NCBI GenBank assembly: GCA_028278645.1
Contig: JANQDZ010000097.1
Span: 1-45,852, forward strand
Reading direction: 5' to 3'
DNA from: Longimicrobiales bacterium
GTDB lineage: Bacteria; Gemmatimonadota; Gemmatimonadetes; Longimicrobiales; Gaopeijiaceae
Length of the DNA: 45,852 nucleotides
Of the stretch, positions 10,675 to 32,389 are shown piece by piece. Below the pieces are notes generated by a model. It was not told the origin of the DNA, ran no database searches, and saw nothing but the letters and a program-made list of their open reading frames with translations. The translations under genes and the position numbers were made by a program. How positions within the stretch are numbered: the first letter of the stretch is position 1; every line of letters begins with the position of its first letter.

Positions 10675-12822
10675 TTAAACCCCTGCCCTCCTGAGCGCCG
10701 CCTTCACCCGGATCATGAACCGTCTCGGATCGAACGGCTTCCGGATGTAGTCGTCGGCCCCGGCCTCCATGAGAGTCAGCTCAGCATCCGGATCGGTGGT
10801 CCCCGTCAGGATAATCACCGGCAGTCCCACCGTGGCGATGCTGGCCCGGGTTTCCTTGAGGACTTCCCGCCCGTCCTTTCGCGGCATTTCCAGGTCCAGG
10901 ACCATGAGGCTGAAAGCGTCTCCGCTCTGGAGATACTCCATGGCCTCCACACCGTCCTCGGCTTCCACTACCCGGTGGCCTTCGCTCTCCAGCAGAGCCT
11001 TGGCGATGGTCCTGTTTGCGCCATCGTCATCTACAAGCAGGATGGCTGGCGGACCACCCAGGTCATCTTCCGCATCGACGCCTGCCGCTTCCACCCCGGT
11101 CCCGGCACCGGCACCGGCACCTTCAGGGGCACCCTTCACGTCACCCAGGACACGCTCCAGCTCCTGGAGGCTGGTCTCACCACTCTTGACCCGGGCGACA
11201 CCCACTTCCCGGAGAGACCGGCTCCCCTCCTCCCGGGCCGCTCTCTGCAGTTCGGCTGCCGAGCCACCCGTGAAGATGATTTCCTTCAGCTTGGGTGTGA
11301 CGGTAACGACCTCGACCAAGGGCAGACGTCCTCGGTACCCTGTCTGACCGCACCCCCCGCATCCCACGGGACGGACCACGGGCTCCACTCCGTACTCCTT
11401 CGCCAGCTGGGTCTCCGCTTCCGTCAGGTTCCCGTTCACCTGCTCACTACAGAGAGGACAGATGCGTCGAACAAGGCGCTGGGCGAGGGCTCCCCTCAGG
11501 GTTTCCGCCAGCGTGGGTCGATCGAGCCCCATGTCCACGAAGCGCCCCACGGTACCAGCTGCGTCGTTGGTGTGAAGGGTCGATAACACCAGGTGCCCCG
11601 TGAGGGAGGCCTGAGCGGCAATCTGAGCCGTCTCCAGGTCCCGGATCTCGCCAACAAAAACCACGTCGGGGTCCTGCCGGAGGATGGCCCGAAGCGCTGC
11701 GGCGAACGTGACCCCTTGTTTGGTCTCGACCTGGATTTGCGTGAGACCCGGCAGCTCGTACTCAACCGGGTCTTCCACGGTCATGATGTTGATGTCCTCG
11801 TCATGGATATGCTGGAGGGCAGCATACAGAGAGGTGGTCTTCCCGGATCCCGTGGGGCCCGTGACGACCACGATCCCTTCTCGGTGCGTGAGGAGGTTCT
11901 GGAAGTGGGAAATCTCCGGTTCCTGAATCCCGACTTCCTCGAGACCCTTGGCTTCCTCGGCATCCAGGATACGGATCACCATCTTCTCGGAGGAGCGGGT
12001 GGGAACCGTGGAGATCCGGAGATCGACCCTTTTGTCGCCGAACCCAACCTTCGCTCGACCATCTTGGGGGCGGAGTCGATCGGCGATATCCAGCTTGGCC
12101 ATGATCTTGATTCGGGAGATCACCCGGGTGAGGACCGAAAGCGGCATGTTTCCCGAGTTTCGGAGCACACCGTCAATCCGATACCGGATCACACCGCCGT
12201 GGGCCATGGGCTGGAGATGGATGTCACTCGCTCCGCTTTCGACAGCCTCCTTCAGGATCACGTTGGTGAGATTCACCAAAGGCCCGGAACCGGCGTCCTC
12301 CAGCGATGGGGTGGCGTCGTCTTCCTCTTCGATCAGCTTGATATCGTCGAGGCTGTCTTCAATATCCGGCTGGACCTGGAAAAGGATTCTCGCCACGTCC
12401 TTATCCGGAGAGTACTGGGCCGTAATGGCCTCTTGGAGTTCCAGGTGTGATGCGACAACCAGGGAGATTCCCCGGCCCGAAGCGAACCCGATGGACTGTT
12501 CGGCTTCGAGGTTCGTGGGATCGGCCGTGGCCACGACCAGTCGGCGATAGTCTTCCCGTAGGGGGAGGATCGTGTATTCGTGGGCCAACGACTCGGGGAC
12601 GAGCTTGAGAGCTTTGCTCTCCACCTCTTCCAGGTCGGCTCTGGGGAGGTGGAAGAACATCGCGACCAGGTCCGCCAGCTCGTTCTGACGGATTCCAGCC
12701 ACCTCAGCGGCTTTCTCCCACGCGTCATCCAGGGGAAGCGAACTCAGAAGGGAGAGCCCCCCCTCCGGGCTTTTTCCCGCCTTCTCCAGAACCCCTTCCA
12801 GCCAGTGGGCTGAATCATTCAT
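10675..12822 (-). CDS. GspE/PilB-type ATPase fused to a response-regulator receiver domain
   Basis: Residues 1-140 match the N-terminal GspE/MshEN-like domain. Residues 180-560 form the secretion ATPase, with Walker A GPTGSGKT at 322-329, the Asp-box DINIMTVEDPVEYE, Walker B in RQDPDVVFVGEIRD at 383-395, the His-box around 410-420 and a four-Cys zinc site (455, 458, 488, 491). After an Ala/Gly linker, residues 592-712 form a CheY-like receiver with acidic DDD at 598-600, phospho-acceptor Asp643, Thr673 and Lys695, all intact. Family members power type II secretion or type IV pilus assembly. The receiver fusion and the 4-base overlap with an HPt-bearing kinase suggest the motor is phosphorylation-controlled. 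No pilin or GspF gene lies in the window, so its apparatus is unknown. Confidence 0.9.
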   Translation of the reverse strand: MNDSAHWLEGVLEKAGKSPEGGLSLLSSLPLDDAWEKAAEVAGIRQNELADLVAMFFHLPRADLEEVESKALKLVPESLAHEYTILPLREDYRRLVVATADPTNLEAEQSIGFASGRGISLVVASHLELQEAITAQYSPDKDVARILFQVQPDIEDSLDDIKLIEEEDDATPSLEDAGSGPLVNLTNVILKEAVESGASDIHLQPMAHGGVIRYRIDGVLRNSGNMPLSVLTRVISRIKIMAKLDIADRLRPQDGRAKVGFGDKRVDLRISTVPTRSSEKMVIRILDAEEAKGLEEVGIQEPEISHFQNLLTHREGIVVVTGPTGSGKTTSLYAALQHIHDEDINIMTVEDPVEYELPGLTQIQVETKQGVTFAAALRAILRQDPDVVFVGEIRDLETAQIAAQASLTGHLVLSTLHTNDAAGTVGRFVDMGLDRPTLAETLRGALAQRLVRRICPLCSEQVNGNLTEAETQLAKEYGVEPVVRPVGCGGCGQTGYRGRLPLVEVVTVTPKLKEIIFTGGSAAELQRAAREEGSRSLREVGVARVKSGETSLQELERVLGDVKGAPEGAGAGAGTGVEAAGVDAEDDLGGPPAILLVDDDGANRTIAKALLESEGHRVVEAEDGVEAMEYLQSGDAFSLMVLDLEMPRKDGREVLKETRASIATVGLPVIILTGTTDPDAELTLMEAGADDYIRKPFDPRRFMIRVKAALRRAGV

Positions 12823-15800
12823 TCAGCAGACGATCCTTGTTCTTTGAGGTAGTCCATTACCTGCTGGAACGCCGTTCTTAATTCCGAGACTGCAGCCTTG
12901 ATCTCCTCGCCACGTTCGTCCCGGCCTGCAGCCTCCACAGACTCCAACAACGCGCCGAAGTGGTCGGCCCGGATGTTCCTCGAGCCGGATTTTATCCCAT
13001 GGGCCTCTCTCTCGACAGCTTTCCAGTCCTCGGCGGCGATAGCCGATTCGAGGGCTTCCATACGGCCCGGTGTTTCCTGAAGGTAGGCGCCCACCGCGGC
13101 GTCCACCACAGATTCAATCCCCGCTTCTCGCATGGCGGCTCGGAACTCATCGAGAAGGACAGGCACCGCCTCCGGCTTCGATTCATCCACGCCCGGTTCC
13201 AGGGCGTCGTCGTCCATTTCCAGGCCTCCTGTAGGTTGGGGCGTCGCCTGACCCTCGGCGCCGGCCCCTTCCGTACCTTCCGAACCACGTGTAATCCGCG
13301 CCCAGTATTCCACTCTTTCCCTGAGTTCTCCAGGTTTGAATGGTTTCGGGACGTAGTCGTCCATTCCCACGTCCTCACACTTTTGACGCTCCTCGGGTAG
13401 GACATGAGCCGTGAGGGCCACAATGGGGATCTTCGAGAACCGGCGGTCCCTCCGGATCTGTTCCGTAGCCTCCAGACCGTCCATCTCAGGCATCTGGACG
13501 TCCATGAGGATCAGATCCGGCAGTTTCTCCTCCAAGGCTTCCAAGGCCTCCAACCCGTTCGCCGCTACCCGTACTTCACAACCCCAACGCTGGAGCAATC
13601 CCATGGCGACCTGCTGGTTCACGAGATTGTCCTCCGCCACCAAAACCTCCAACCCTTCCGTCAATTCCTGTGACGTGGTGGGAGCAGGCGCCTCTTCCCC
13701 ATCCCCGGCGGCTTTCGGTCCCGGTTCACCCTCGTCTCGCTCTTGGAGGATCACGTTCACGGCCCGAAGCAGGTCGGCCCGGGACACGGGTTTCTGGTGG
13801 AAGCCGTTCACCCTCAGGCGTGAGGCTAGCTTCCTGTCGCCGGGCCGATTGGACGAGGTCAGAATCATGAGGGGCAGATCCCGGAGGTCCGGATCGAGCC
13901 GAATGTCCTCGGCCAATTGGAACCCGTCCCGCCCCGGCATAAGGAGGTCCAGGATTGCGAAGTCGAAGGGGTCTTCTTCTTGGACCGTCCGGAGGAGGTT
14001 CAGCGCTGCCACAGCCCCGTCCACCGTTTGGACCCGAGCACCTGCGTTCTCCAGGAAGTCCCGGAAGATGCGCCGATTGGTCTCCAGGTCATCCACGATC
14101 AAAACTTTGACGCCGGTGAGATCGACCCGGTCACCAGCCTCGGGGAGGGGTGCGAACTCTTTGTCGATCGGAAGCTTGATGGTGAAGAAGAAGTCGCTTC
14201 CTTCACCCTCCGAGCTCTCTAGCTGAAGCCCCCCTCCCATGAGGGAGACCAGGTGCCGGGAGATCGTGAGGCCCAGACCAGTCCCTCCATATTCCCGGGT
14301 GGTGGAAGAGTCGGCTTGAGTGAACTCCTGGAAGATGGCGTCCTGTTTTTCCTTCGGGATGCCCACCCCCGTGTCCTTCACCGAGAACCGGACGTTTGCA
14401 AAATCGTCGTCCCCGTCTTCCACGGACACTGAGACGAGGATCTCCCCGTCCTGGGTGAACTTCACGGAGTTCCCGACGAGATTCGAGAGAACCTGTCTTA
14501 AGCGAGTCGGATCACCGATCACCCCCCTCGGGACTTCCGGTCTGAGATCGACCATCAGCTCGCTCCCCTTCTCCACCGCTGAATGGGAGAAAAGGGCCAC
14601 CGCTCCGAGCACCTGCTCGTTGAGGTCGAAGGAGACTTCCTCCAGCTCCAAATGACCGGCCTCGATCTTGGAGATGTCCAGGATGTCATTCAGAACACCC
14701 AACAGGGACTCGCCCGAGGACCGGATGATCCGGAGATATCCGCTCTGTTCGGAGGTGAGCTCGGTGTCGAGGAGGATCTCCGTCATGCCCAAGACGCCGT
14801 TCATGGGCGTCCGGATCTCGTGACTCATATTGGCGAGGAACGCGCTCTTCATCCGGGTAGCGCGTTCGGCCCGTTCGGCCAGGTCCCGCATGCGTTCCTC
14901 GGCCTCTTTTCTCTCGGTCACGTCACGAACCACTCCGAGCAGGCCGAGGTGATCACTCTCCACATGTCGGAAGACCGTCTTCACCGTTTCCCACAAACGC
15001 CGACGGCCCTCGGAATCCACCACCCACTCATCGAACTTCACCGGATCCCAACTTGTTAGGGCTTCGATATCTGTCTTCCGGTAGGCGGCAGCTCTTTCTT
15101 TGCCGACGAGATCCTCGTCGGTCTTCCCTACGATCTCTTCCTCCGTACGCCCGAGGAATTCGGCATACCGATAGTTACATCCCTGGTATTTTCCTTCCCC
15201 GTCTTTGAAGAAGATCATGTCCTCGGTCCCGTTGATGAGAGACCGAACCAAGGAGTTCTTTCGGGCAACCTCCTGGAGCGCCTCCCGGGCCTCCACCCGA
15301 TCTGTGACGTCCCTGGCGGTACCCTGGGCTCCCCGGACCTCCCCCTGTCCGTCCCTAAGGGGGGTGGCGGAAAAACTCAGGTGTCTAGGCTCCCCGGAGA
15401 CCGAGTTGTGAACCGTCTCATGATCCACGAGCTCGGAGCCCATGAGGACCTTTCCAAAAGCGGCATAGTCCGTCTCCAGGTGGCCTGACTCAGCCTGGTC
15501 CAAGGCAACCGTGCCAAGGAGATCCTCGGGGGCAGCCCCATAAATCTCCTCGGCGGCGGCGTTCAGAAACGTCCAGCGACCTTCATTGTCCATCTGCCAG
15601 ACCAGGTCCCGAGCCGATTCCACCAACCCCTTGTACTGCTGCTGGGCAGCACGCAACTCCAGTCGAATCTTGAGGGATTCCTCCAGCTGAAGGTTTGCCT
15701 TCCGGTGGATCACGGACATGATGACCCAAAAGGTCAGCACCAAGGCCAGAAGGCCGAAGCTCAGATTGGGATCGAGGGGATTATACCAACCGAGGCCACG

Positions 15801-16346
15801 GATGCCGGCGGAAACAAAAACGGAGCCCAGCAGGATGGTGGAGAACCCGTAGAAGGAGGGTGTGTCTGCAAGCAGAGTGGCCGTGGCGGCAGCCACGAGG
15901 CCGGCCATGATCACCAACAACACTCCCACAGAGTCGGCCGGGAGCTGGAGGCCGAAGAGCACCCCTCCCAACCCCCACGCCGTGGCCACGACGATGGCGC
16001 CCCGGTACGCCAACTTCCTGGCCTCCATAGGCTCGTCTTCGGATCTCTTCAAGCGGAATCCGATGACGACACGCCACGCTGTAGCAAGAACCAGGAGTCC
16101 GAACCAGATCAGGGAGTTCCGGGCACCTACCAAATCCATGAAGAGGACCAAAGCAACGATCCCTGCCACGGGGTGGCCGGCGACTCCGCCAGTGGAATCC
16201 TGGACGAACCTCTCGGCGAGGGCCGCCCGAACGGCTTTTCCCGAAAAGGTCGCGCTACTCAGGGACCCATGCTCTGGCGGAGGGAGGCCCGGGGCCGCAA
16301 CCGGGGGACCTGTTTTTGAATCACCGTTGGTCATATCAGCTCTCAT
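12819..16346 (-). CDS. Hybrid sensor histidine kinase with two receivers and an HPt domain
   Basis: Of 1175 residues, 60-215 hold about six membrane helices with no large outside domain. Two PAS domains follow (about 238-355 and 365-480, the latter ending GVVRDVTERKEAEE), then HisKA with phospho-His509 in NMSHEIRTPMNG, and HATPase with the N-box around Asn626, DTGVGIP and GGTGLGL. Receiver 1 has Asp800 and receiver 2 Asp949; the HPt has His1116 in AHGIKSGS. It is a BarA/EvgS-like phosphorelay protein. The signal is unknown. It overlaps the anchor-subunit gene upstream by 11 bases and the ATPase-receiver gene downstream by 4. A second ATG at 16334 (residue 5) lies just behind the upstream stop and may be the real start. 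Confidence 0.93.
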   Translation of the reverse strand: MRADMTNGDSKTGPPVAAPGLPPPEHGSLSSATFSGKAVRAALAERFVQDSTGGVAGHPVAGIVALVLFMDLVGARNSLIWFGLLVLATAWRVVIGFRLKRSEDEPMEARKLAYRGAIVVATAWGLGGVLFGLQLPADSVGVLLVIMAGLVAAATATLLADTPSFYGFSTILLGSVFVSAGIRGLGWYNPLDPNLSFGLLALVLTFWVIMSVIHRKANLQLEESLKIRLELRAAQQQYKGLVESARDLVWQMDNEGRWTFLNAAAEEIYGAAPEDLLGTVALDQAESGHLETDYAAFGKVLMGSELVDHETVHNSVSGEPRHLSFSATPLRDGQGEVRGAQGTARDVTDRVEAREALQEVARKNSLVRSLINGTEDMIFFKDGEGKYQGCNYRYAEFLGRTEEEIVGKTDEDLVGKERAAAYRKTDIEALTSWDPVKFDEWVVDSEGRRRLWETVKTVFRHVESDHLGLLGVVRDVTERKEAEERMRDLAERAERATRMKSAFLANMSHEIRTPMNGVLGMTEILLDTELTSEQSGYLRIIRSSGESLLGVLNDILDISKIEAGHLELEEVSFDLNEQVLGAVALFSHSAVEKGSELMVDLRPEVPRGVIGDPTRLRQVLSNLVGNSVKFTQDGEILVSVSVEDGDDDFANVRFSVKDTGVGIPKEKQDAIFQEFTQADSSTTREYGGTGLGLTISRHLVSLMGGGLQLESSEGEGSDFFFTIKLPIDKEFAPLPEAGDRVDLTGVKVLIVDDLETNRRIFRDFLENAGARVQTVDGAVAALNLLRTVQEEDPFDFAILDLLMPGRDGFQLAEDIRLDPDLRDLPLMILTSSNRPGDRKLASRLRVNGFHQKPVSRADLLRAVNVILQERDEGEPGPKAAGDGEEAPAPTTSQELTEGLEVLVAEDNLVNQQVAMGLLQRWGCEVRVAANGLEALEALEEKLPDLILMDVQMPEMDGLEATEQIRRDRRFSKIPIVALTAHVLPEERQKCEDVGMDDYVPKPFKPGELRERVEYWARITRGSEGTEGAGAEGQATPQPTGGLEMDDDALEPGVDESKPEAVPVLLDEFRAAMREAGIESVVDAAVGAYLQETPGRMEALESAIAAEDWKAVEREAHGIKSGSRNIRADHFGALLESVEAAGRDERGEEIKAAVSELRTAFQQVMDYLKEQGSSAE

Positions 16347-21622: not shown

Positions 21623-22618
21623 TCATTGATCCTTTTTGGAGACGCCATCAGGCGCCGATCGCGAGGACTCACTCCCCTCCTCGCCCTGTACCTCACTCCA
21701 ATACTCCGGTCTGTCCGGGGGCTCACTCGCCCGGAGACGAGCCATTGCTTCCCTGTTCCGCCGGCGACGGACCCGGACCATCAACAGAAGGGCCAGGGCC
21801 AAAGAAAGCCAGAAGATGGAGGAATGTGAGACCACGAATAGCCACCCATACCGCCTCCGAACATACACCTTCCAATCCTCTTCGAACTGGCCCAGTGTCA
21901 GTCCGTATGTGTTTCGAAGGGCCCGATCAAAACTCCGTACCGATCGCCAGCGTTCCAGGAAGATGCGGAGGCCCCTCTCGCCGCTTTCCGCAATGAGGTA
22001 CTCGACCGCTGTAGCCGAGAGGAGATAGGCGAGACTGGCCGAAGCCTGATCCCTTGGCCATGCCAGGACGAGGGAATCCAAAGGTGGGGCCCTGCCCAAG
22101 GCAAAAGCTACCCGAAGTCGCCAACCCTCTGTGGGATTCCACCCCCCCGAGGCCCATTCCGCGTATCCCTCATCGAACCAAAGAGGTATTCGGAGGCCTT
22201 CCAGATGTTGATGCAACCCCAGGTGGGCCCACTCGTGTCGGAGCAGCCTGGCCTCACTCCAACCCCAAGCCCTTCTGTCCCCGAACCCCGGGACTACGAT
22301 CCTGGAAAGGGACGGGATGGCCACCCCGGCACCCCACTCAGGCACGGCACCTCCGGTCAAGGAGTCGAAGGCCGCTTGATCAGGTGCGATAAAAAGGGAT
22401 AGCCCACGGGGAAGGCTGTCGGGAAGGCCGGGGAGGGGGGGAAGACCCGCAAGGAACTCACCGATGGAAACGGCCCGTAAAGAATCGGCACCCCGATACC
22501 CCACCTCAACCTGAGGCCCTGGGACCCACCGGTACGACGCTTCTCGAGGTTCCTGACCCTGGGGGGGAGCAGCCAGAATCAACCCCGCCAAAATCAAACC
22601 CAGGGCCGACGAAAGCAT
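21623..22618 (-). CDS. Membrane-anchored zinc metallopeptidase (peptidase MA-like)
   Basis: The 331-residue protein has a signal peptide (residues 1-20), an extracytoplasmic domain with the zinc motif HEWAH at 128-132 and a downstream acidic helix WFDEGYAEW at 147-155, whose Glu likely is the third ligand; this is the gluzincin arrangement of peptidase MA/M1-like families. A membrane helix at about 265-285 (SSIFWLSLALALLLMV) then a basic stretch (RVRRRRNR) places the C-terminus in the cytoplasm. The substrate is unknown. It sits between the DUF4388-TPR gene (nine-base gap) and the sigma-54 activator (three-base gap). Confidence 0.8.
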   Translation of the reverse strand: MLSSALGLILAGLILAAPPQGQEPREASYRWVPGPQVEVGYRGADSLRAVSIGEFLAGLPPLPGLPDSLPRGLSLFIAPDQAAFDSLTGGAVPEWGAGVAIPSLSRIVVPGFGDRRAWGWSEARLLRHEWAHLGLHQHLEGLRIPLWFDEGYAEWASGGWNPTEGWRLRVAFALGRAPPLDSLVLAWPRDQASASLAYLLSATAVEYLIAESGERGLRIFLERWRSVRSFDRALRNTYGLTLGQFEEDWKVYVRRRYGWLFVVSHSSIFWLSLALALLLMVRVRRRRNREAMARLRASEPPDRPEYWSEVQGEEGSESSRSAPDGVSKKDQ

Positions 22619-22627
22619 GAAACTCTA

Positions 22628-24253
22628 CTAGGAGCGGGCCGATAGGTCCGCGATCTGGGCTCGGGCTTCCTCGTTGTTGGGGTTGAGCTCAACGGCCCGG
22701 TTGAGGAAGAGCTCGGCCAGGTCCGCATCACCGACCTCTCGGGCGATGTGGCCGAGCTTCAGAAATACGTCGTCCCCGAGGGAAGGATTGAGCTTAACAG
22801 CCTGCTCGTAGTGGGACTGGGCGGCAGACAGATCACCCCTCCGGAATGCCTGGTCGCCGAGGTTTTTGTGGGCTTGGGGAGGGATCTCAGATCCGGAGTT
22901 GACCGCCCTCATGAAATACTGTTCCGCGGCTTCATGATTCCCGGTATGGTCCAGGATCACACCGGTATTCACAAGAATCGAGGATTCCGTCGGATGAGCC
23001 TTGAGGCCCTCCCTCCCCAGGGAGATCGCCTCCCCCAGATGCCCTGCCGCTGCAGAGGCCAGAGTGGAGAACGCGTAGTACATGGGTGACGGAGTTTCCT
23101 TCCCGACTACGTCTCGATACCTGAAGAATGTGGCGCGGGCGGCAGCTGGGTCGCCCCCGTTTAACTCGGAGATACCGATAGCCAGGATCACCTCTGGATC
23201 ACGACCTGCGAGCTCCTCCCCCCTCCGGAGGGTCTCGAGGGCCTCAGCGTGCCTGCCGGTCTGCTCGAGGGCCAAAGCCCGGTTTCTCAGGGTCGCCAAC
23301 TCCCCAGCCTGCTCCTCGGGCATGGCCTCAAAATGACTCAGAGCCCCCTCCGCATCCCCGGTCTTCAGGTCGATGAGACCGAGGTGGAAGCGTGCCGTCG
23401 GCTCGGACCCCTCCAGCTCAACGGCCCTTCGATACTCTTTCGCCGCGTCTTCCAGCATTCCCGCTTTATAGAATGCCTGGCCGAGTCGTACGTGCTCCTG
23501 GAGCCGAATCTCGTCCTCCCCACCGTCCGCCTGAGCTTTCTCCCCGACGTTTTTGGCGAAGCCCGCCTGGACCAGCTCGTAGATGGCCTTCCCCGTCTCG
23601 AACTCCACCAGTCCTGACTCCTCCACCACTTCCCTGACCGTACGTGATCCATCCAGCAGAGGGAGGAGCCGTTTCTGGTTCCCGGTGAGCTCTACCTCAT
23701 CTGCGTCCTTCGGGTCTCTGGTCATCTTGTAGATCAGGTCGAGGGAGTGCACTTCCCTCTCGATGACCGACCACTCGTCCACCCGCCGCGCCCCCTCCAT
23801 GAGGAGGCCGTCGGTACTCAGCGCCACGAGGAGGACCTGAGTTCGGTCCGGAAACTCATCCGGCTTGAAGTGGAAGGTACCTTGCTCCCAGGTGAAGAGG
23901 TGGTAGACGGCTTCCTGGACCTGAACGGCAACCCATTTCTCCAGATCTCCCGAAGTGACTGCCCCCATGTCCACCAGAATCTCGCCCAGGCGCTTCTGGC
24001 TCTCCTTCCCTTGTTCCTCCATTGCCCGGGAGAGGTCGTCCGGCTGGATTACGGCGTTTTTGACCAGGATCTCGCCTAGCCGGTCCGGGCGGTTCAGGAC
24101 AAAGGAGTACACCACCCTACCATCTTCGAAGTAGATGTACCCGAAGTTCGCCCGGTTCGTGACTGTGAGGCAGCCCGACTTCCGGCCCAACGATATGAGC
24201 TGGCAGATGTCCGCCAAACTCACATCAGCTAGGGATCCTTCAATCGCTGCCAT
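22628..24253 (-). CDS. DUF4388 (PATAN) domain protein with TPR repeats
   Basis: Residues 1-160 form a DUF4388/PATAN-like module: MAAIEGSLADVSLADICQLI, SGCLTVTNRA, GYIYFEDGRVVYS, two LGEIL repeats (at about 59 and 88) and the closing QGTFHFKPDE. Residues from about 250 to 541 are tetratricopeptide repeats (for example AAKEYRRAVELEG and AQSHYEQAVKLNPSLGD), which bind protein partners. PATAN domains occur in signalling and motility proteins of myxobacteria and cyanobacteria. The ATG shares one base with the stop of the DnaA-like gene (TGATG), so both are translated together and may work as partners. The product looks soluble and cytoplasmic. Confidence 0.85.
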   Translation of the reverse strand: MAAIEGSLADVSLADICQLISLGRKSGCLTVTNRANFGYIYFEDGRVVYSFVLNRPDRLGEILVKNAVIQPDDLSRAMEEQGKESQKRLGEILVDMGAVTSGDLEKWVAVQVQEAVYHLFTWEQGTFHFKPDEFPDRTQVLLVALSTDGLLMEGARRVDEWSVIEREVHSLDLIYKMTRDPKDADEVELTGNQKRLLPLLDGSRTVREVVEESGLVEFETGKAIYELVQAGFAKNVGEKAQADGGEDEIRLQEHVRLGQAFYKAGMLEDAAKEYRRAVELEGSEPTARFHLGLIDLKTGDAEGALSHFEAMPEEQAGELATLRNRALALEQTGRHAEALETLRRGEELAGRDPEVILAIGISELNGGDPAAARATFFRYRDVVGKETPSPMYYAFSTLASAAAGHLGEAISLGREGLKAHPTESSILVNTGVILDHTGNHEAAEQYFMRAVNSGSEIPPQAHKNLGDQAFRRGDLSAAQSHYEQAVKLNPSLGDDVFLKLGHIAREVGDADLAELFLNRAVELNPNNEEARAQIADLSARS

Positions 24254-26292
24254 CAGTCGCCATTCTCCACAATCCGCTCATTGATCCTTGGCCAATCCAT
24301 CACCACCTGTTCCGGCGAAGGGACCCACTCCGCAACATCGTCCGCTCCCCTTTCACTGGCCGCCAGGGCATCCAGGATCTCACCCTGGTCCACGGCATCA
24401 CCTTCCGGACGCGTCGGGACCCTCGGCTGGAAGGACATGATCCACTCGAGATCTTCGGCGGATACGTCCTTTTTCTTCTCCGCGGCCGGGGCAGCCTTAG
24501 CCGGTTCGACTTGTTCCTCTCCCTCTTCGAGAGGCTCCGGGTCCGGGCCCTTTGCTTTCTCCGAGCGTTCGCCCGGATCCGAGAGCGTGGCCTCGTCTGG
24601 GTCTGCGGCATCATCTCGGTCCGGTTTCGGTTGCGGGGCGTCAGCCTCGGCTGGAAGCCCGACGCTCTCCCTAAGCTCGGCAGGGAGTTGGCTTTTCTCC
24701 ACCTCCACTTCCACCACCAACCCTCCCTCCAAACGTGCCCTCAGTCGGTCGTCCAAGGCGGAGATTTGATTCGGCGGGCGGTCGCCGGCGATCATGACCC
24801 GAGCCCTTCGCCGACCCAGGGCCTCGAAGAGATGGAAGAGCTCCTCCTGGGCCCTTTCGGTTCCTTCCAGTCGTTGGGCCCCTTCGATGAGGAGGAGGTC
24901 TGCCACCCACCAGCGTTCCCGCCAGGCCCCCGCCACCCCCATGGATAGTGACCGAATGAACTCCTCCGCGAAGTGGTCCACGGAGATCAGCGCGACCTTC
25001 GATCCTTCCTTCGCTTCGGATTTGCTCCGGCCGGCCGCCTGCAAAAGCACCGAGGCGGCCGCCCCGTCACTGCTCCATACGTAAAGGGGGTTGTACTCGG
25101 TTCGATCCGTGGACACCAGCTGATCGGCGGCTCGAACCACCAATTTCGGAAGGTCTCCTCCCAGGCCTTCGAGGGTTGGGCCCGGAGGGATCTCGGGGAA
25201 CGGTTTGGCCCTCTCCTCCGCCGACGCCAGCAGCGCTTCCGCTTCCTCGATCCGCTCGGGATCTCTGAGGACCCCGTGGGCGGCCTCCGGCCAGGGGTTA
25301 CCTACCGCGTCCAATCCAGCCGCGATCTCCTTCAGCCTCGCCACCGCACGTTCAAAACCCGAGAGGAAATCGTCGAGGTCGTCCGGAGGGTTATTCCCTT
25401 CCATCCTCTTCCGTAGCCCTCCGGCGTTGAACCCGCCGGCCTCTGCCTTCTCCGCCCCCTCCCGAAGGAGCTTTCGCCAGGGCGCCTCCTGGGCCTGCAC
25501 CTTTTCCGCCACGGTGTCAGAAAGCTCGTCCAGGAACTGACCCAGCTCCGACCCCACTTCATCCTCACCTTCTTCGGACCGTTGCTCCAAGATGAACGTG
25601 GCCTCCTCCGGACTCAGAACCTTGTCATCGTTCTCCTGAACGTCGAGTACACGGTCGAGGGAGTCCTGGAGTTCCGTCACCGATTCCGAGGGGAACCGCC
25701 CTATCGCATCGGCCACACTCGGCTCGAGTGCGGTTCCCCTGATTTCGGCCCGCTTCGTGACGATGGCCACCCGGGTCTCGTACTCCGGAGACCCAATGTC
25801 CACGAGTAGTCCTCCCTCAAACCGGGTTCGGAGGTGGGCGCCCAAGCCATCGATCTCCACCGGTGGCCGGTCACAGGCCAGGACGACCTGTTTGCCTTCC
25901 CCGGTCAGCGTATTGAGGGTGAGCAGAAGTAGTTCCTGAACCTCGGACTGGGGAGTCAAAAACTGGACGTCGTCCAGGAGCAGGATGTCTACGTCCTTAA
26001 AGCGAGCTCTTACCTGGTCCTCCCCCTGGATACCAGAGGCGCCGACGAACTCCCTGAGGAACTCCTCAGGGGTCAGGTAGTCTACTGTCTTATCCGGATA
26101 GACCTTTTCGACATGCCGAGCGATTGCCCCGAGTATATGGGTTTTCCCGAGGCCCGAACTGGAATAGATGAAGAGCGGGTTATAACTCACCCCGGGCCTC
26201 TCCGCGGCCCGACGGGCTGCGGCTGAGGCCAGGCGGTTGGCGGGCCCGACCACGAAGTTCTCAAAGGTGAAGTGCGGGTCTAGTTTTTCCAT
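24253..26292 (-). CDS. Double DnaA/Hda-like AAA protein lacking a DNA-binding domain
   Basis: From the ATG at 26292 (679 residues) the first half matches the DnaA AAA+ core: FTFENFVVGPANRLA, YNPLFIYSSSGLGKTH with Walker A, DILLLDDVQFL as Walker B, and a lid region to about 240. A second copy at about 375-535 keeps the layout (YNPLYVWSSDG, LLLIEGAQRL, DRPPNQISALDDRLRARLEG), but its Walker A is replaced by DGAAAS and Walker B by IEGAQ, so it cannot bind ATP normally. The C-terminal HTH that reads the DnaA box is absent; an acidic linker and a short Trp/Pro motif (MDWPRINERIVE) replace it. It is therefore not the initiator. A GTG at 26307 is an alternative start. It overlaps the rluD-type gene by 13 bases. 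Confidence 0.85.
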   Translation of the reverse strand: MEKLDPHFTFENFVVGPANRLASAAARRAAERPGVSYNPLFIYSSSGLGKTHILGAIARHVEKVYPDKTVDYLTPEEFLREFVGASGIQGEDQVRARFKDVDILLLDDVQFLTPQSEVQELLLLTLNTLTGEGKQVVLACDRPPVEIDGLGAHLRTRFEGGLLVDIGSPEYETRVAIVTKRAEIRGTALEPSVADAIGRFPSESVTELQDSLDRVLDVQENDDKVLSPEEATFILEQRSEEGEDEVGSELGQFLDELSDTVAEKVQAQEAPWRKLLREGAEKAEAGGFNAGGLRKRMEGNNPPDDLDDFLSGFERAVARLKEIAAGLDAVGNPWPEAAHGVLRDPERIEEAEALLASAEERAKPFPEIPPGPTLEGLGGDLPKLVVRAADQLVSTDRTEYNPLYVWSSDGAAASVLLQAAGRSKSEAKEGSKVALISVDHFAEEFIRSLSMGVAGAWRERWWVADLLLIEGAQRLEGTERAQEELFHLFEALGRRRARVMIAGDRPPNQISALDDRLRARLEGGLVVEVEVEKSQLPAELRESVGLPAEADAPQPKPDRDDAADPDEATLSDPGERSEKAKGPDPEPLEEGEEQVEPAKAAPAAEKKKDVSAEDLEWIMSFQPRVPTRPEGDAVDQGEILDALAASERGADDVAEWVPSPEQVVMDWPRINERIVENGD

Positions 26293-31327: not shown

Positions 31328-32389
31328 CTATCCTTCCGACCCCTTCCCCTCTTGTTCCTTTTTGAGGAGAGAAAAAAGCCACTTCGGTTCTTCAGGGATG
31401 GAGGAGGGGTCCTCTTCGGTTTCGGCTGCGGCTACCTCCCCACCCTCTCCGGTGTCTTCTTCCTGAGGGGGATCCACGGAGCCTAGGGCCCTGGCCGGAG
31501 CAAGATCCTCTATCCCCACGGGGACGGCGCCCTCCAGCACCTGAGTGTCGAACCCATCCGGAAGGTCCTCCCCAACGTCCTCAGGGGCCAGTTCCTCCAC
31601 CGGAGCCACCACCTCTTCCACCAAATCGGCGGCAGCCTCGGCCTCGTCGGCAAGGGCTTCTATCTCTTCCGGAACGGATTCCGGCTCAACCTCCACGGCT
31701 TCCGCCTCTTCGGCCACCGAATCCATCTCTTCAGCCACCGCTTCGACCTCTTCGGCGTCGGCCTCGATCTCTTCCACGTCGGCGTCGACGTCCTTCACGT
31801 CGGCGTCGGGATCTGCTTCGAGACCGGCCTCCGGGTCCAGGCCCCCGGCTGGGGCCCAACCCCTGAATTCCAGCTCAAGGGGGGTTTCTTCCAGGGGTCG
31901 CCTGGCCTCTTCAACCTCCACGGCGTCAAACTCTCTCTCGAGGAGGCCTCGGAACGACTTCAGGAATTTCATGCGACTCCGCTCGAGCTCCTCCAGAGCC
32001 CGTTGGCGCTCCATGATCAGCCCCTCGGCCTCTCCCAGGCGCCTGCCGATCTCCGCGTCAGCCTCGGCTTTGAGGAGCTCGGCTTCCCGCGTTGCCCTGT
32101 CCAGGATCACCGAAGCGTCGCGCTCACTCTGGCCTTTTACATCCTCACGGAGTTTCTGAGCCGAGACCAGCGCTTCTTGAACAGCGCTCTCACGACCCAC
32201 GAGGCCTTCCAACTGTTCCTCGAGCCGCCCGGTTTTGTCCGTCAGGGCCAGGTTCTCCCTCACCAACTCCTCGAACCTTTCGGCCACGAGATCCATAAAC
32301 GTGTCCACCTCCTCCGGATCGTAACCCCGAAGGATTTTCCGGAAGTCCCCCCTCTTCTTCCGGACATCGAGTGGTGTCAGGTCGATCAT
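31328..32389 (-). CDS. DivIVA-domain coiled-coil protein with acidic tail
   Basis: Residues 1-45 carry the DivIVA N-terminal motif (LTPLDVRKKRGDFRKILRGY, DPEEVDTFMD), which binds curved membranes in relatives. Residues 30-165 form a long coiled coil (RFEELVRENLALTDKTGRLE, LKAEADAEIGRRL). The tail from about 200 to 290 is an irregular acidic repeat of Glu, Ala, Val and Asp (VEEIEADAEEVEAVAEEM). In known cases DivIVA proteins mark poles or septa and recruit partners. The tail is not typical and may be a binding or spacer region. The gene overlaps yggS by four bases, a pairing common across bacteria, usually beside division genes. Confidence 0.88.
   Translation of the reverse strand: MIDLTPLDVRKKRGDFRKILRGYDPEEVDTFMDLVAERFEELVRENLALTDKTGRLEEQLEGLVGRESAVQEALVSAQKLREDVKGQSERDASVILDRATREAELLKAEADAEIGRRLGEAEGLIMERQRALEELERSRMKFLKSFRGLLEREFDAVEVEEARRPLEETPLELEFRGWAPAGGLDPEAGLEADPDADVKDVDADVEEIEADAEEVEAVAEEMDSVAEEAEAVEVEPESVPEEIEALADEAEAAADLVEEVVAPVEELAPEDVGEDLPDGFDTQVLEGAVPVGIEDLAPARALGSVDPPQEEDTGEGGEVAAAETEEDPSSIPEEPKWLFSLLKKEQEGKGSEG

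Follow-up and report, generated by a model that had tools for sequence, protein, structure and literature searches.

We report that the window, i.e. the whole 45,852-nucleotide stretch of DNA analysed here (contig JANQDZ010000097.1, positions 1 to 45,852, of the Longimicrobiales bacterium assembly GCA_028278645.1, phylum Gemmatimonadota), carries a gene, here named dnaA2x, that encodes two DnaA-type AAA+ cores in one chain. The first core has the active motifs, while the second has lost its nucleotide motifs and kept the Arg finger. Homologues occur in many families of Gemmatimonadota, and in families other than that of the window (f1) the gene lies with genes for MglA and chemosensory proteins. 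On balance our data favour, by no means firmly, that dnaA2x serves an MglA/chemosensory polarity module as a nucleotide switch derived from DnaA, in which core 2 of the f1 proteins would be a built-in Arg-finger partner for core 1. It is apparently a variant of the DnaA-type AAA+ proteins that is undescribed in the literature searched.

Domain structure of the dnaA2x protein

The dnaA2x frame is intact and runs on the minus strand from an ATG at 26292 to a stop at 24253, and both its ends touch or overlap its neighbours, the rluD and DUF4388-TPR genes. The gene and the parts of its protein are as follows (window coordinates).

24253..26292, minus strand: dnaA2x, tandem DnaA-like AAA+ protein of 679 residues (Pfam Bac_DnaA, two matches)
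25573..26283, minus strand: core 1, complete DnaA domain III with lid and active motifs, residues 4-240 (Bac_DnaA; VIA)
26140..26163, minus strand: core 1 Walker A SSSGLGKT, residues 44-51; K50 corresponds to E. coli K178
25966..25983, minus strand: core 1 Walker B LLLDDV, residues 104-109 (in the stretch LLLDDVQF); D107/D108 correspond to E. coli D235/D236
25822..25824, minus strand: core 1 Arg finger R157, equivalent to E. coli R285 and Hda R153
25207..25482, minus strand: conserved helical middle domain, residues 271-362
24658..25197, minus strand: core 2, predicted DnaA AAA+ base fold without lid, putative pseudo-ATPase, residues 366-545 (AlphaFold2; VIA)
25051..25074, minus strand: core 2 degenerate Walker A SSDGAAAS, residues 407-414; A413 in place of E. 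coli K178
24880..24897, minus strand: core 2 degenerate Walker B LLLIEG, residues 466-471; E470/G471 in place of E. coli D235/D236
24733..24735, minus strand: core 2 Arg finger R520, kept; equivalent to E. coli R285, same column as Hda R153
24322..24657, minus strand: acidic, mostly disordered linker, residues 546-657 (low model confidence)
24256..24321, minus strand: C-terminal motif region, residues 658-679, with W667

Pfam Bac_DnaA (PF00308) matches two stretches of the protein (281.6 bits summed), and in the genome search both cores score above the family cut-off (E 4.3e-54 for core 1 and 2.4e-29 for core 2). The DnaA model TIGR00362 aligns at its positions 103-343 of 437 only, and DnaA domains I and IV are therefore missing: the chain starts at model position 103, and the protein has no Pfam match to Bac_DnaA_C, the domain IV helix-turn-helix (HTH) that reads DnaA boxes. 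The sum over the two cores barely exceeds the TIGR00362 equivalog cut-off (345.9 vs 343.9 bits), so automatic annotation may name the protein 'chromosomal replication initiator DnaA' despite its having no DNA-binding domain. With the Hda model TIGR03420 the score is 116 bits, below the cut-off of 194.8, and inspection of the N-terminal sequence revealed no Hda-like clamp-binding motif. The sole other DnaA-ATPase gene detected in the window genome encodes a canonical DnaA (471-residue frame, G000:C18), and a separate full-length DnaA was present in 12 of the 12 genomes tested.

An AlphaFold2 model was built with 48 sequences and compared with solved structures by VIA, which gives Z scores and root-mean-square deviations (rmsd); residue equivalences were taken from an alignment to E. 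coli DnaA and Hda. Core 1 was modelled with per-residue confidence (predicted local distance difference test, pLDDT) mostly above 90 and matches B. subtilis DnaA with Z 29.9 and rmsd 1.9 over 237 residues; its Walker, Arg-finger and AID2 (L290) positions line up with E. coli DnaA. In the model the second half of the protein is likewise a DnaA-type AAA+ fold, without the lid in the window protein. Specifically, residues 366-540 folded alone gave pLDDT 94 and a predicted template modelling score (pTM) of 0.89, their pLDDT is also mostly above 90 in the full-length model, and core 2 matches A. aeolicus DnaA with Z 25.8 and rmsd 2.0 over 173 residues, compared with Z 19.4 for Hda and about 13 for generic AAA+ proteins.

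The middle domain between the cores, also modelled mostly above pLDDT 90, is present in the 39 homologues used for conservation counts, single-core forms included. It has no Pfam match, the matches listed in the fold search with the full-length protein were taken up by core 1, and we make no claim about its fold. Most of residues 553-654 have pLDDT under 50, and the linker is thus predicted to be disordered. It leads to a C-terminal Trp/Pro motif, EQVVMDWPRINERIVE, in which W667 is found in 39/39 homologues and E661 and E676 in at least 90%; this region is probably a docking peptide.

Made from the sequence alone, the initial annotation had described two DnaA/Hda-type modules of which only the first keeps Walker A and B, a lost DnaA-box-reading domain, a long acidic linker, a conserved-looking Trp/Pro motif at the C-terminus and a protein distinct from both DnaA and Hda, and the profile searches, the model and the conservation counts bear this description out.

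Homologues, duplication and decay of core 2

Homologues were searched for phylum-wide in 298 genomes; a locus of one of these, G033, lies within JACCWE010000069.1 from a Gemmatimonadaceae metagenome-assembled genome, which identifies the phylum as Gemmatimonadota. Two-core forms occur in families f1, f2, f4, f5 and f6, and one-core forms of about 395 residues in f3 and f9; the middle domain and the C-terminal motif are common to both forms, and none of the homologues examined proved to have an HTH. In a tree of core 1, core 2 and 20 DnaA proteins each of the three formed one group (support 100/98, 100/99 and 100/83, respectively), with a long branch to core 2 (1.15 changes per site). Because each is one group, the tree indicates a single tandem duplication of DnaA domain III, before the class diversified. 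An independent duplication giving core 2 in f1 was considered and rejected, since all core 2 sequences form one group. In a scan of contigs from named genomes the matches listed were mostly ordinary DnaA, together with four two-core records, all from Gemmatimonadota, and a restriction of dnaA2x to this phylum is suggested. A short second Bac_DnaA-like open reading frame (269 residues, E 1.5e-6) was noted in another class of the phylum (locus L110; G001, C57:7758-8132).

Within f1 the nucleotide motifs of core 2 have decayed: the Walker A Lys and Thr are each found in 0/21 sequences and the two Walker B Asp residues in 1/21 and 2/21. Retained in 21/21 are the Arg finger R520, R516 and the helix GVAGAWRERWW; the box VII block RLRSRFEGGLV hardly varies, and about 59 of the 166 core-2 positions are at least 90% conserved. 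In f4, f5 and f6 the Walker A Lys and the first Walker B Asp of core 2 are present in 22/22, and four of the five f2 sequences have an intact Walker A there. Among the families compared, a uniformly dead core 2 is thus a trait of f1 only. This was missed by the initial annotation: the dead copy is lineage-specific, and relatives have two intact cores or one only. Just seven residues do not vary over 46 core-2 sequences, namely P37, R93, E119, R151, R155, G159 and L160 (segment numbering); the Arg finger (R155, i.e. R520) is among them, and no nucleotide motif is. Selective decay with a kept Arg finger is what one would expect if a pseudo-ATPase is maintained for its interface, and the earlier comparison of the active and dead pair with a built-in dimer fits this retention of finger and interface.

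Gene neighbourhood and the MglA link

In 31/31 loci from non-f1 families of Gemmatimonadota, MglA is encoded at or near dnaA2x, usually overlapping it or a few bases away (exceptions, about 0.2 and 1.2 kb). The order in these loci is CheA-CheC-TPR-DUF4388-TPR/Roadblock-Roadblock-Roadblock-MglA-dnaA2x-DUF4388/TPR-CheR-CheB-CheW-TPR-Peptidase MA, with members missing from some, and four named Gemmatimonadota metagenome-assembled genomes show the identical cluster order. In this cluster, the ancestral setting, dnaA2x is a neighbour of MglA. The clusters of genus g49 (L054, L057 and L066) keep dnaA2x, but neither Roadblock nor CheR was detected in them, and their MglA is very divergent (branch of 1.31 changes per site).

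In f1 the block of dnaA2x, DUF4388/TPR and peptidase genes is located behind yggS-divIVA-(pnp)-ileS-rluD. Tests of four f1 genomes, of which two are single contigs, found no CheA dimerisation domain and no Roadblock; neither the window genome nor the one-contig genome G069 had a match to PF02895 (CheA) or PF03259 (Roadblock). The only MglA detected in the window genome lies between recR and cinA (contig C97; L088:7538-8116). Relatives keep a Roadblock gene beside this recR-cinA-type paralogue (L117-L120), and no Roadblock (MglB) was detected in the window genome. The idea that the MglA of the window's family is a relocated cluster copy was rejected, as it groups with the recR-linked paralogue type (the starred branch of the tree). 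Within f1, MglA at E<=1e-60 is present in 24/24 genomes with a clear dnaA2x vs 2/49 without (Fisher p about 3e-17, the genomes not being independent), and any MglA match in 24/24 vs 13/49; dnaA2x was scored as absent from six f1 genomes that gave weak extra matches. The presence of dnaA2x varies inside the f1 genera g8, g14 and g22, and the matching profiles of dnaA2x and MglA are therefore not one shared event. The window's DivIVA (31328-32389, minus strand), whose gene lies in the operon stretch that also holds the f1 block, has a long, highly acidic C-terminal half.

Two further genes of the block lie downstream of dnaA2x in the window.

22628..24253, minus strand: partner gene, 541 residues, a DUF4388 domain followed by TPRs; it starts at the last base of dnaA2x
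21623..22618, minus strand: Peptidase_MA_2 gene (Pfam), third constant member of the block, near dnaA2x in nearly all loci

The DUF4388-TPR gene adjoins dnaA2x in the loci examined. Its product scores 53.7 bits with the MshEN-related NCBIfam model c-di-GMP_motif (cut-off 38), and its DUF4388 domain has an MshEN-like double RLGxxL motif, two RLGxxL...Q motifs being found in most of 40 orthologues. Given this score and conservation, input of cyclic di-GMP through the DUF4388-TPR protein is plausible, with a candidate receptor inside the DUF4388 domain. PATAN is presumably the same domain as DUF4388. In cyanobacteria, PATAN-domain response regulators are tied to type IV pili (PMC7690835), and candidates in the Myxococcus MglA/SgmX network included PATAN proteins (PMC11580455). 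PilT was present in eight of eight genomes tested.

Possible function of dnaA2x and alternatives

ATP binding, hydrolysis, assembly, partners and a polarity role of dnaA2x are all things that we infer. We envisage dnaA2x as a DnaA paralogue that has gone from replication and works with the adjacent DUF4388-TPR protein. Core 1 would bind ATP and oligomerise via a DnaA-type interface, i.e. as an ATP-driven assembly switch, and in two-core relatives with intact motifs both cores could cycle. In f1, core 2 would be unable to bind nucleotide and may act catalytically on core 1, by lending R520 either to core 1 in its own chain or to that of the next molecule, thereby completing the active site; the chain would then carry both ATPase and activator, an internal Hda that times the lifetime of the ATP-bound assembled state. 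The likely output is through the parts shared by all forms: in this state the Trp motif at the C-terminus or the middle domain would be displayed to the DUF4388-TPR protein, which would relay to machinery at the surface, with type IV pili the most likely candidate. The f1 lineage would have lost the chemosensory and Roadblock genes, the dnaA2x/DUF4388-TPR/peptidase block surviving with one other MglA encoded elsewhere. More tentatively, and with rather less than even confidence, the tandem DnaA-derived ATPase may be a core part of the MglA/chemosensory polarity system, re-used as a spatial or signalling switch, with the second motor turned in one lineage into an embedded Arg-finger activator.

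Several observations weigh against this. Core 2 is wholly absent in f3 and f9 and is therefore not essential to the system. The MglA of the window genome belongs to the second, recR-cinA paralogue group and not to that of the cluster, so the MglA link is there one of co-occurrence, not adjacency. PilT is also present in genome G017, which lacks dnaA2x, and type IV pili as the output are a guess from gene content. Finally, the window protein is a divergent family member, with H153 at the equivalent of E. coli R281 and T206 in place of the sensor II Arg (R334), and hydrolysis by its core 1 may therefore be atypical. Loss of the sensor II Arg as a family trait was rejected; within f1 it was seen only in the window protein.

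One alternative is that dnaA2x is a scaffold only, core 1 polymerising with ATP and core 2 being non-catalytic with an Arg finger kept as a packing interface. We regard this as possible but unlikely: it agrees with the lost nucleotide motifs of core 2 in f1 and with the families that have no core 2, but R516, R520, GGL and the WRERWW helix are near-invariant on a core that has otherwise diverged far, which points to an interface face, a pattern that does not separate catalysis from binding.

The initial annotation had offered a regulator of replication or a spatial switch. The first of these, in which an Hda-like dnaA2x would either cap DnaA filaments at oriC or work in trans, with its core-2 Arg finger, on the DnaA-ATP of the cell, would draw on both cores being DnaA domain III by sequence and fold and on the Arg finger residue that core 2 shares with Hda (R153) and DnaA (R285). 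We consider it improbable in view of the MglA/chemosensory clusters in all non-f1 loci, the separate DnaA in every genome tested, a distribution that is patchy even inside genera, the Hda score below cut-off, the N-terminus in which inspection revealed no clamp-binding motif, and the f1 genome G017, which lacks dnaA2x and still has DnaA; the spatial switch is the better half of that proposal. That dnaA2x is a decaying relic in f1 after loss of the chemosensory/MglA-1 cluster is very improbable: the f1 genomes tested have neither CheA nor Roadblock, core 2 has lost its ATP binding motifs and many f1 genomes lack the gene, but the open frame, core-1 motifs and C-terminal motif are conserved across f1, as are many core-2 positions, and the gene is kept together with the DUF4388-TPR partner and MglA-2.

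The dnaA2x protein resembles DnaA in domain III, to which both cores align with high Z scores. It differs in that one chain holds two cores, the second of which has no nucleotide motifs in f1, in that domains I and IV are absent and a middle domain and tail are new, and in the MglA/Che gene context of relatives; nor is it the initiator gene of the organism, as canonical DnaA is encoded separately. Asymmetric AAA+ pairs in which an inactive subunit is kept for its interface or Arg finger are found in the eukaryotic origin recognition complex and in clamp loaders; those act on DNA, whereas in dnaA2x the two are joined in tandem within one chain and linked with a signalling cluster. Hda is likewise a DnaA-like AAA+ protein without a DNA-binding domain, and its R153 falls in the same column as R157 and R520. 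However, Hda has one core only and binds ADP and the sliding clamp (PMC5742627), while in dnaA2x, which scores under the Hda cut-off, the partner ATPase sits in the same chain. The Myxococcus MglA/MglB/Frz system with SgmX (TPR) also comprises MglA, Roadblock, chemosensory and TPR proteins, but in the dnaA2x-bearing relatives all the genes form one cluster. A survey of MglA places Group 1 MglA in Gemmatimonadetes and does not mention a DnaA-like component (PMC4316618), and we found no literature joining DUF4388 with MglA, or DnaA with MglA and Roadblock, in a search that left most subscription journals outside. If the proposed switch is correct, the DnaA/Hda ATPase fold would have left DNA replication for a polarity/chemosensory system. 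The homologues also form a natural before/after series from active AAA+ site to pseudo-ATPase, in which two live cores are followed by one that is live with an Arg-finger donor beside it, or by a lone core, and we consider the gene context of more interest than the dead copy by itself.

Elsewhere in the window, a T2SSE protein (type II/IV secretion ATPase; 10675-12822, minus strand) has an MshEN at the N-terminus and a response-regulator receiver domain at the C-terminus, and its gene is overlapped by that of a 1175-residue PAS/hybrid histidine kinase with Hpt (12819-16346, minus strand); the pair would directly couple a secretion or pilus ATPase to a phosphorelay.

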